Below, one piece after another: positions 3,517-15,047 of a DNA stretch of 23,573 bases. The stretch's first letter is position 1. Every line of letters starts with the position of its first letter. Position numbers and translations under genes: made by a program. The stretch lies in the IMG/VR virus record IMGVR_UViG_3300032291_003341, positions 1 to 23,573 of that record, one strand, 5' to 3'. Origin of the DNA: a virus. The notes under the pieces are model-generated. The model saw only the letters and a program-made list of their open reading frames with translations. It ran no database searches and was not told where the DNA came from.

Positions 3517-3539
3517 TTCATAATAAAAAACACACACAC

Positions 3540-4343
3540 ATGAAAAATTTAGTAATGCAAAAGAAAAGAGGTCGTAAGCCAAAAGTTAAAGAAACAGTAG
3601 CGTTCGACCCAAAATCAGTTCAAATATTTAAAGGTTCTGAGCTGTCATTTAACGAATCTGTATTTCGCCCAATGTCAACTGGAACATTGATGGATTCAAT
3701 TTTATCAACAGATAAGGGTTTGATGCCTGCTGTTAATATGATTATCTGCGGCGGACCAGGTTCAGGTAAGAGTACAGTGGTATTAGATATGTTATCTAAA
3801 TTAGCGGCTAGAGGTAAAAAGGTATTGTTTGTGAGTGGTGAGATGGATGAAATTGGTCACTTCAAATATTGTAAACGTATGCCTGGTTTTAAGGTTGTAC
3901 CGACATTATTTTTGAAGAACTATACTGAAACGGTTCGTGAGACAATGGAGTATGTGTTCGACCAAGGTTATGATGTGATTGCGATTGATAGTATTGCTGA
4001 GGTAATTGAGATGTTTAAAGATACTTACCGTACAACTGAAAGCGCTGCGGAGTTATGGTTTTTGAACTTACAATCGACAGTTAAGAAAGGTGGTAACAAA
4101 TTAAAAAAGTACACATCGTTCATTAACATTCAACAGGTAACTAAAGCAGGTGATTTTGCAGGTAGTAACCGCTTAAAACACATGACTGAAGCAATGTGTC
4201 ATATTGATAGAATTAAAGGTAGCGATAGTAGAAAGATATATTTTAGTAAAAACAGAGATTGTGATACTGAATCATATATCAAATATAGAATTGGGTTTAG
4301 TAAGGTAGAGTATAGTTTGCCTGAGGCGGACGAAGAGGAATAA
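3540..4343 (+). CDS. RadA/RecA-like ATPase with N-terminal AT-hook-like patch
   Basis: A 267-aa P-loop ATPase of the RecA/RadA (Sms) type, expected to act on DNA in phage recombination or branch processing. Walker A is GGPGSGKST (71-79) and Walker B is VIAIDS (146-151). The segment LFVSGEMDEIGHFKYCKRM parallels the RadA 'SGEES..Q...R' sensor region. INIQQVTKAGDFAGSNRLKHM (195-215) parallels RadA's 'VTK.G.IAGP..LEHM', and FSKNRD (235-240) sits where RadA has KNRFG. The usual RadA zinc finger and Lon-like domain are absent; instead residues 8-18 (KKRGRKPKVKE) resemble an AT-hook. The start at 3540 follows the standard leader. Single-gene cassette with its own promoter. Confidence 0.85.
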   Translation: MKNLVMQKKRGRKPKVKETVAFDPKSVQIFKGSELSFNESVFRPMSTGTLMDSILSTDKGLMPAVNMIICGGPGSGKSTVVLDMLSKLAARGKKVLFVSGEMDEIGHFKYCKRMPGFKVVPTLFLKNYTETVRETMEYVFDQGYDVIAIDSIAEVIEMFKDTYRTTESAAELWFLNLQSTVKKGGNKLKKYTSFINIQQVTKAGDFAGSNRLKHMTEAMCHIDRIKGSDSRKIYFSKNRDCDTESYIKYRIGFSKVEYSLPEADEEE

Positions 4344-5178: not shown

Positions 5179-5200
5179 TAGACACATAAGATTGATAGAT

Positions 5201-5620
5201 ATGAAACCTAAAGACATAAGTAAAGAAACGTTCATTGAAATATGTAACCAACAACCAACAATGGCTAAAGCAGCAGTTGCTTTAGGGTTACACTTTAATA
5301 CCTTTAAAACATATGCTGTTAAATATGGCTGTTATGAGCCGAATCAAGCAGGTAAGGGTATTAAAAAGGATATTAAAAAACGGATCACGAATCTAGAAGA
5401 CTATGCTAATAGAGCTAGTGTCAGACGAGTGATCATTAAAGATGGTTTATTACCGTATGAGTGTAGTGAGTGTGGTATAAGTAAGTGGAACGAAAAACAG
5501 TTAGCACTTCACCTAGACCATATAAATGGTAAGAATGGGGACCATAGATTAGAGAATTTAAGATTTTTATGCCCGAATTGCCACTCACAGACAGATACAT
5601 ATACTGGTAAAAATAAGTAA
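5201..5620 (+). CDS. HNH endonuclease, probably a free-standing homing enzyme
   Basis: The 139-aa product has an N-terminal helical DNA-binding part (TMAKAAVALGLHFNTFKTYAV resembles a helix-turn-helix) and a C-terminal HNH nuclease. Zinc ligands are C88/C91 (CSEC) and C124/C127 (CPNC). The catalytic series is D106-H107 in LDHINGK, N119 in LENLRFL and H128 in CPNCHSQ. ATG 5201 is chosen over the in-frame TTG 5192. It lies 52 nt after tRNA-Leu, a common site for mobile nuclease genes in phages; the tRNA itself is intact. DNA nicking or cleavage is expected; the target is not visible. Confidence 0.88.
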   Translation: MKPKDISKETFIEICNQQPTMAKAAVALGLHFNTFKTYAVKYGCYEPNQAGKGIKKDIKKRITNLEDYANRASVRRVIIKDGLLPYECSECGISKWNEKQLALHLDHINGKNGDHRLENLRFLCPNCHSQTDTYTGKNK

Positions 5621-5787: not shown

Positions 5788-5980
5788 AGTCAGGTGGCGG
5801 AATGTTAACAACCCCGTTCTAGAGGTAAAAACAATGTGGTTAGAATCCACTACGGGGTCAATGTTAACTTGGTAGACGCAAATGCCACTCGGAGGCGAAT
5901 GAGTAATCAAACACCTCCTTGCTAGTGGTAGGGTATCCAAAAGAGTAAATCTCATACAGGTTCGAATCCTGTCCTGACTA
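5788..5980 (+). tRNA. Non-canonical tRNA-like gene A, 193 nt, with D-loop insertion
   Basis: The ends are a good tRNA: acceptor AGTCAGG/CCTGACT, T-arm ACAGG-TTCGAAT-CCTGT, D-stem GCG (5797)/CGC (5877), discriminator A. The body is not. The D-loop contains an inserted hairpin (5801-5868) between two 9-bp direct repeats AATGTTAAC. Inside it, ACCCCGT/ACGGGGT (5811/5852) and GTGG-TTAGAAT-CCAC mimic a second acceptor and T-arm. The anticodon position has an extended arm: TGCCACT/AGTGGTA (5883/5924), an internal loop, GGAGG/CCTCC (5891/5914) and an 18-nt loop, so no ordinary 7-nt anticodon loop exists. It could be an intron-bearing tRNA-Leu/Ser, a tRNA-like regulator or a decaying tRNA. Confidence 0.6.
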
Positions 5981-6024: not shown

Positions 6025-6107
6025 AGTCAGGTGGTGTAAGGGTAGACAAACACACGGTAAGGTACTAGAGACTAATCGAGTAACAGGTTCGAATCCTGTC
6101 CTGACTA
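6025..6107 (+). tRNA. Non-canonical tRNA-like gene B, 83 nt
   Basis: Same acceptor (AGTCAGG/CCTGACT) and T-arm (CAGG-TTCGAAT-CCTG) as gene A, and a D-stem TGT (6035)/ACA (6046) that differs from the GCG/CGC of the other copies by compensated changes. No 5+7+5 anticodon arm fits. The best arm is TACTAGA-GACTAA-TCGAGTA (6063-6082), with one A-G mismatch and abutting the T-arm. The length is normal for a class II tRNA, but no anticodon with U33 can be assigned. Confidence 0.6.
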
Positions 6108-6121
6108 CACAAATACCAGTA

Positions 6122-6175
6122 GTTGATTATGAGACTCGAGGGGAGATTATAGGACCTAAGGGTTGATTATGAGAC
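6122..6175 (+). repeat. 14-bp direct repeat GTTGATTATGAGAC (6122-6135 and 6162-6175)
   Basis: Two exact copies 40 nt apart within the noncoding region after tRNA-like gene B. Confidence 0.7.
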
Positions 6176-6299
6176 ATTTAATCTGGTAACAATGAGGAAG
6201 GCCCTTAGGCAAGGCTATGTCGACTGGAACGTATGCCGGAAGATGAATAACCAACTTACTCATGGGATTCGAACGCGAAGCAAAGCGCCCCAACAATGG

Positions 6300-6326
6300 A
6301 GACCTAGGCCTGATCAGCTTAGGTCT
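6300..6326 (+). terminator. Hairpin terminator ending the RNA cluster
   Basis: A perfect 7-bp stem AGACCTA/TAGGTCT, with a palindromic CTGATCAG in the loop, followed by TTTCCCCTTCTT. It separates the RNA operon from the helix-turn-helix gene. Confidence 0.6.
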
Positions 6327-6345
6327 TTCCCCTTCTTAAGGATAG

Positions 6346-11283: not shown

Positions 11284-11389
11284 AGTCAGGTGGCGTTTTG
11301 GAAAGCGCAGCACCTTCCAGGGTTGAGACTAACAGCTAATGGCACTCAAAATGATAAAGCTGAAGCAGGTTCGATTCCTGTCCTGACTA
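11284..11389 (+). tRNA. Non-canonical tRNA-like gene C, 106 nt
   Basis: Acceptor AGTCAGG/CCTGACT, T-arm GCAGG-TTCGATT-CCTGT, D-stem GCG (11293)/CGC (11306) with a normal D-loop (TTTTGGAAAG), discriminator A. The anticodon position could read CTTCCAG (anticodon TCC, Gly), but its flanks AGCAC and GGTTG pair at only two of five positions. A 40-nt variable region contains a CAGCT/AGCTG helix (11333/11358). It shares GAGACTAA with gene B. It is either a badly degenerate tRNA-Gly or a tRNA-like RNA with another job. Confidence 0.6.
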
Positions 11390-14906: not shown

Positions 14907-15047
14907 ACTCAAGTGGCGAAAGGATCAGGAGGCCCTGGTCGACGGTAGACGCAACGTATGGTTATAACAACGTGAGTAAAAAATTATCTGAACAAGATAA
15001 GGTCATTATAATGGCAGCTCGTGCAGGTTCAACTCCTGTCTTGAGTA
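14907..15047 (+). tRNA. Non-canonical tRNA-like gene D, 141 nt, with D-loop hairpin
   Basis: Acceptor ACTCAAG/CTTGAGT, which differs from genes A-C at two positions in both strands so pairing is kept; T-arm GCAGG-TTCAACT-CCTGT; D-stem GCG (14916)/CGC (14950). The D-loop holds an extra hairpin GATCAGG-AGGC-CCTGGTC (14923-14940) before the usual GGTAGA. The anticodon position offers only ACGT/ACGT with a 12-nt loop. A 6-bp variable hairpin TTATCT-GAACA-AGATAA (14984-15000) follows, then about 20 nt more before the T-arm. Amino-acid identity cannot be assigned. Confidence 0.6.

Follow-up and report, generated by a model that had tools for sequence, protein, structure and literature searches.

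A structured RNA module in the D-loop of an apparently undescribed family of viral tRNA-like genes

In a 23,573-nt stretch of viral metagenomic DNA (IMG/VR record IMGVR_UViG_3300032291_003341; this whole stretch is referred to here as 'the window'), a tRNA-like gene, gene A, carries a 65-nt structured segment, M1, within its D-loop. We favor the interpretation that M1 is a discrete RNA module seated in the D-loop of a tRNA-like RNA that does not decode and that overall would act as a scaffold for exchangeable cargo, and we put the probability of this reading at roughly 60%. That M1 is a real, exchangeable structured module we regard as highly probable, and any specific function that might be proposed for the family to which gene A belongs stands well short of even odds. 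The fold of M1, its fixed position, its gain or loss independently of the rest of the gene interior and its existence outside tRNA-like genes are all read here from sequence comparison.

Gene A is laid out as follows:
5788-5980, + strand: tRNA-like gene A, with acceptor, D-stem, T-arm and discriminator; its ends are common to at least 120 viral stretches
5788-5794 and 5973-5979, + strand: acceptor stem, AGTCAGG/CCTGACT, 7 bp and perfect
5797-5799 (GCG) and 5877-5879 (CGC), + strand: D-stem
5880-5955, + strand: hypervariable middle, in place of the anticodon and variable arms
5956-5972, + strand: canonical T-arm, ACAGG-TTCGAAT-CCTGT
5980, + strand: discriminator, A

Gene A resembles canonical tRNAs in its 7-bp acceptor and its T-arm with a TTCRANT loop, and it lacks an anticodon arm (a 5-bp stem with a 7-nt loop directly after the D-arm). 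In the place of that arm is a middle in which a hairpin, GGAGG...CCTCC, is nested in CCACT/AGTGG, and this middle (GGCGAATGAGTAATCAAACA) has no exact match in other viral contigs. ARAGORN called no tRNA at gene A, the Rfam tRNA model (RF00005) matched only its 3' part with a score below threshold, and the window contains no tmRNA model matches or calls. Gene A is very probably not a decoding tRNA. Without the inserted segment, its D-arm reads GGCGGAATTGGTAGACGC, which is the normal form of the family, as the first-pass annotation of this DNA had supposed, and which we take to be Leu-like.

The module itself comprises four proposed helices:
5804-5868, + strand: D-loop module M1, 65 nt; covariance model match of 95 bits, found in 20 further contigs
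5804-5809, + strand: helix P0, 5' arm GTTAAC, pairing with 5863-5868; at 4 of its 6 pairs, both bases are substituted in homologues
5863-5868, + strand: helix P0, 3' arm GTTAAC, within the second of two direct repeats noted earlier
5811-5817, + strand: helix P1, 5' strand ACCCCGT; both bases substituted at 2 of its 7 pairs
5852-5858, + strand: helix P1, 3' strand ACGGGGT, pairing with 5811-5817
5820-5827, + strand: small hairpin P2, YA-GNNG-TR; T-A in 8/10 and C-G in 2/10 sequences
5836-5850, + strand: hairpin P3, T-arm-like GTGG-TTAGAAT-CCAC, invariant in ten D-loop copies

On one sequence alone, a hairpin of this kind is within chance expectation: nested hairpins of this design number 3, against 0.98 expected per strand and a maximum of 5 in first-order Markov random sequences, and the window is rich in 9-bp repeats spaced 20-80 nt apart (62 vs. 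14 expected). The feature is significant because the module is conserved across contigs. Ten distinct copies from D-loops form the four proposed helices in 97.9% of cells, and 7 pairs are changed on both sides (vs. a mean of 1.8 in shuffles; 0/500 shuffles as high), a signal that is lost when the partners are slid against each other. The covarying helices are two, P0 and P1. In P0, the arms read GATAAC/GTTAAC in L130, ATTAAC/GTTAAT in L132 and TGTTAC/GTAACT in L182, none of which are direct repeats, and GTTTAAAC/GTTTAAAC in L133; in P1, a T-A replaces an A-T in L132 (TCCCCGT/ACGGGGA) and a C-G in L182 (ACCTCGT/ACGAGGT). The P2 pair is also C-G in L131 and L181, with few independent events, and P3, being invariant in the D-loop set, offers no covariation there; outside that set, P3 reads CCGC in L180/L181 with pairing kept via G-U, and its loop is TTAAAAT in L207/L209. 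Covariation lends little or no support to P2 and P3. The junctions TTCYAGNNGTRAAAAYAAT and YAAT are almost constant among copies. Free folding returned P0 and P1 in 3/3 copies tested and P3 in the L181 copy only; the minimum-energy fold of the window copy accordingly has P0 and P1 and no P3.

The elements named in the first-pass annotation, including ACCCCGT/ACGGGGT and GTGG-TTAGAAT-CCAC, are all present, and its proposal of a structured segment in the D-loop of a tRNA-like gene is supported by the recurrence of the segment and its covarying stems. Its further description of the segment as a tRNA-like minihelix nested in a tRNA holds insofar as the acceptor-like helix and the T-arm-like hairpin are conserved, the tRNA likeness being one of resemblance only: the P3 loop, TTAGAAT, has an A where tRNAs have C56, and it occurs in none of the real tRNA T-arms of these loci. 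The refuting pattern that it named, in which every homologue has the segment amid unrelated flanks, does not arise, since filled as well as empty homologues occur. The absent anticodon arm of gene A and the hypervariable family around it had escaped that annotation, whose interpretation is in sum partly supported.

M1 recurs in 20 other metagenomic contigs (L081, L128-L140, L180-L183, L207 and L209) and in about 13 flank contexts, the window counted. Grouping by flanking DNA placed 19 copies, L207 and L209 not among them, in 12 groups; these last two, genuine copies from a relaxed scan whose surroundings match each other, appear to form one extra group. Two other low-scoring matches from the relaxed scan (L198 and L202) look like chance. 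In the D-loop, M1 invariably comes after the D-stem and GRAAT and before TTGGTAGACGC (the exceptions being L131 and L180/L181), in a single orientation and at an identical site that it occupies with 12 different middles; by sequence, the copies in L133, L134, L136, L139 and L183 also lie inside the tRNA-like scaffold. Only in L131 and L180/L181 is M1 free-standing. In L131 its neighbors are tRNA-Ile and tRNA-Trp, and in L181 they are tRNA-Lys and tRNA-Trp, with another closing stem there, ATACGAAT/GTTCGTAT. Being found without the scaffold, M1 is an independent RNA element that either entered D-loops as a module or escaped from them. The viral contig L131 (1028-7904) also carries a near-complete tRNA set (24 tRNA genes) and a tmRNA (tag GEYNYAIAA).

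Conserved junction loops on freely changing stems, together with the free-standing copies in the tRNA-array spacers of L131 and L181, are what one might expect of a self-cleaving ribozyme or a processing signal. We consider this unlikely, as cleavage in the D-loop would nick the scaffold and no Rfam ribozyme family matched M1, lax thresholds included; more generally, the Rfam 15 covariance models placed no family over 5804-5868 or over the L131 copy.

Beyond M1, the scaffold itself is widespread. The constant ends of the family (AGTCAGG...ACAGGTTCGAATCCTGTCCTGACTA) enclose its variable interior, and the exact 3' end GTTCGAATCCTGTCCTGACT occurs in at least 120 viral-contig stretches. A loose finder returned 321 candidates in 163 loci, with up to 9 per locus, of which 224 have the acceptor of gene A and the remainder, with other acceptors, include ordinary tRNAs. 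Clustered at 80% similarity, the middles of the 130 distinct members with a parsable D-arm give 116 types, and 104 of these types have a single member. Set against dinucleotide shuffles, the middles are somewhat better folded (mean z -0.70, standard error 0.08) and hence are no random filler.

Members of the family retain the acceptor, D-stem, T-arm and discriminator, some sit among ordinary tRNA genes, and a few (e.g. L047 and L073) have plausible anticodon arms, all of which would suit a translating tRNA with expansion segments that is charged by an unusual synthetase. Yet canonical anticodon arms are at chance level (2/130 members vs. 0.8 in shuffled middles), the middles are hypervariable in length as well as in sequence, and ARAGORN makes no call at gene A, which renders a translating role decidedly unlikely. 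We give little credence to the possibility that these are decaying tRNA pseudogenes, with ends that recent duplication has kept and middles that are drifting debris. The wild diversity of the middles and one very short remnant (L129:662-689, AGTCAGGTGGCAATTGGTCCTGACTA, consisting only of the family acceptor ends and part of the D-arm) are compatible with decay; against it, the ends are exactly conserved beside free middles, the stems of M1 covary around invariant loops, unrelated contigs share middles and modules that are identical or similar, and the middles outfold their shuffles. Given the constant ends, the hypervariable middles and the chance-level anticodon arms, we interpret the family as putatively non-decoding tRNA-like RNAs with a hypervariable interior.

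In 50,697 records of isolate phages there was no real match to the family, only chance T-arm or D-arm matches. In host chromosomes, the 22-base pattern of the 3' end turned up in 1/395 genomes from the sampled phylum, where it lies on a MAG contig of 4.3 kb. We found no description of the family in the full-text literature, a scope that leaves out most subscription journals and bioRxiv and so allows for an earlier description; with that reservation, this family of modular viral RNAs is apparently a new one. Within a few kilobases of family members we also observed the Rfam freshwater-1 RNA, in L178 (10301-10363, just above the gathering score) and L023 (4124-4186, just below it).

Filled and empty D-loops can be compared directly. 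L128, which has M1, shares an identical 33-nt middle with L135/L138, which have the plain D-loop GGCGAATGGTAACGC, and L209/L207 (M1) have a middle similar to that of L017 (plain D-loop). Other modules occupy the same D-loop position without being related to M1. A scan for long D-loops, which returned 40 contigs and selects for modules, so that module frequencies are biased, yielded at least four further recurring classes, plus singletons: M2, AAAGAGTAATAGTA on a varying stem; M3, built around GGCGCTGGGATAAAAACTGGGGCC; M4, GTTAGGAATATTAAAG; and M5, GCGGTTGAAAGGCC. Filled and empty pairs are found for M2 (L150 vs. L017, and L162 vs. L069) and M3 (L178 vs. L091). The M2 stem has 3/6 pairs changed on both sides, a weak signal that 30/500 shuffles reach, and the other classes, e.g. 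M2, look like conserved loops on varying stems. As read from such member pairs rather than from a tree, M1 has been gained or lost independently of the middle.

Exact removal of M1 restores the consensus D-loop of the empty members, which is what would be seen if M1 were an intron whose excision left a normal D-loop (GGAATTGGTAGA) and a working tRNA. Archaeal tRNA introns can indeed lie in the D-loop. We give this explanation still less credence than decay, since gene A minus M1, like nearly all members, remains without a canonical anticodon arm, the module classes have no visible junction motif in common, and L131, L180 and L181 each have an M1 that is not part of a tRNA-like gene. To our knowledge, the bulge-helix-bulge splicing endonuclease is not known in bacteria.

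Least credible is a small mobile element (MITE- or IS-like) whose entry into the D-loop would have left the 9-bp target-site duplication suggested in the first pass: the window does carry two exact copies of AATGTTAAC (5801-5809 and 5860-5868) and both filled and empty homologues exist, but the two repeat arms change together, as strands of an RNA helix, and are unequal in several copies, no empty site keeps a repeat copy (GTTAAC was absent from all short D-loops tallied), so that the direct repeats do not derive from an empty site, and M1 keeps one orientation and one D-loop position, tRNA-array spacers aside, where unrelated modules are found too.

Gene A is one of several such genes in the window, and its surroundings vary among related phages:
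5192-5620, + strand: HNH endonuclease gene upstream of gene A, in a ~960-bp stretch missing from L186 and L187
5628-5657, + strand: repeated promoter-like motif TTTGGCTT-N13-TGTTATATT, preceding genes A and B
6025-6107, + strand: tRNA-like gene B, with the same ends as gene A and a D-loop without a module
11284-11389, + strand: tRNA-like gene C, with the same ends as gene A
14907-15047, + strand: fourth tRNA-like gene, acceptor ACTCAAG/CTTGAGT

The fourth gene has a D-loop hairpin of its own (GATCAGG-AGGC-CCTGGTC, 14923-14940) that is unrelated to M1. The comparison drew on twelve loci, each carrying a relative (70-100% identity) of the ATPase gene at 3537-4343. In L186 and L187, the tRNA-Leu immediately adjoins the DNA found 3' of gene B in the window; the missing stretch, from about 5150 to about 6108-6144, comprises the HNH gene, the promoter-like motif, a small ORF and genes A and B. 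At the syntenic site, L188 carries a single tRNA-like gene whose middle is a different one, L190 two other such genes and L196 a tRNA-Met. Because the site is empty, different or tRNA-replaced in relatives, we regard it as a swap point beside a tRNA gene, where the HNH gene may drive exchange. Separately, the motif TTTGGCTT-N13-TGTTATATT has ten copies between 2766 and 14816 of the window, at constant spacing and several of them before genes or RNA genes, and it may serve as a phage-wide promoter. Also separate is a segment of ~240 nt at 6109-6345, strongly conserved in six related phages and with no known RNA match, which is probably a further uncatalogued structured RNA; its terminal hairpin has a stem changed on both sides (GACCTAGGC-CTGATCA-GCTTAGGTC vs. 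GGCATGGAC-CTGATCA-GTTCATGCC), and its overall fold energy is mildly below that of shuffles (z -1.6).

Under the scaffold-and-cargo reading, a constant shell of acceptor stem, D-stem, T-arm and discriminator encloses an exchangeable inside, consisting of an optional D-loop module, one of a limited set, and, in the place of an anticodon arm, a hypervariable middle. The shell would recruit host tRNA maturation (RNase P, RNase Z and CCA addition) and protect the RNA, cargo would be tolerated on the D-loop and anticodon sides, and modules would be exchanged by homologous recombination via the constant ends. M1, with its strictly conserved loops on free stems, may be a recognition element for a protein or another ligand. 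Our guess is that the most likely use of such cargo would be in phage-host or phage-phage conflict, e.g. as a carried regulatory RNA, or as a decoy for host factors that target tRNAs. It is conceivable, although we lean against it, that phages, probably of Bacteroidota, have a combinatorial RNA system in which a tRNA-like capsule, with modules swapped at two sites (the D-loop and the anticodon side), yields a phage-specific set of matured, stable effector or decoy RNAs; by analogy, this would be a variable-region repertoire made of RNA.

The finding bears on why phages carry so many tRNA-like genes. If the reading is true, the tRNA fold is a capsule in which phages deliver and mature diverse RNAs that do not decode, with the D-loop as a natural plug-in site, and many unexplained tRNA-like genes of viral metagenomes would have a common explanation, with a warning that tRNA finders overlook or misname them. 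It would also provide a ready set of covarying RNA modules for ligand fishing.

Among known systems, gene A shares a canonical T-arm and a Leu-like D-arm with class II, Leu-type tRNAs (RF00005), and differs in having no anticodon arm at the canonical place, its match to the model being partial and below threshold. In tmRNA, tRNA-like ends surround a non-tRNA insert, as they do in the gene A family; unlike tmRNA, this family has several dissimilar copies per phage and no tmRNA model match in the window, and L131 has its tmRNA separately. Van den Berg et al. (2023; PMC10264068) proposed that phage-encoded tRNAs counter the anticodon nucleases of the host; these tRNAs have in common with the family the phage tRNA-array setting and a proposed role in conflict, but are real tRNAs with anticodon-loop changes, whereas the family has no anticodon arm. 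Finally, the allo-tRNA-like or irregular tRNA polycistrons of soil metatranscriptomes (Mukai et al., 2017, as summarized in PMC7609411) likewise comprise irregular tRNA-like genes, some with an extra loop, and in that summary they are neither charged nor used in translation in Escherichia coli systems. As described there, these genes have anticodons, 8/4 or 9/3 acceptor domains (12 bp) and an extra loop between the acceptor and the D-stem, whereas the phage family has 7/5 arms (in gene A, a 7-bp acceptor and a 5-bp T-stem), no anticodon arm and a module inside the D-loop, and is phage-borne with modules that appear to be swappable.
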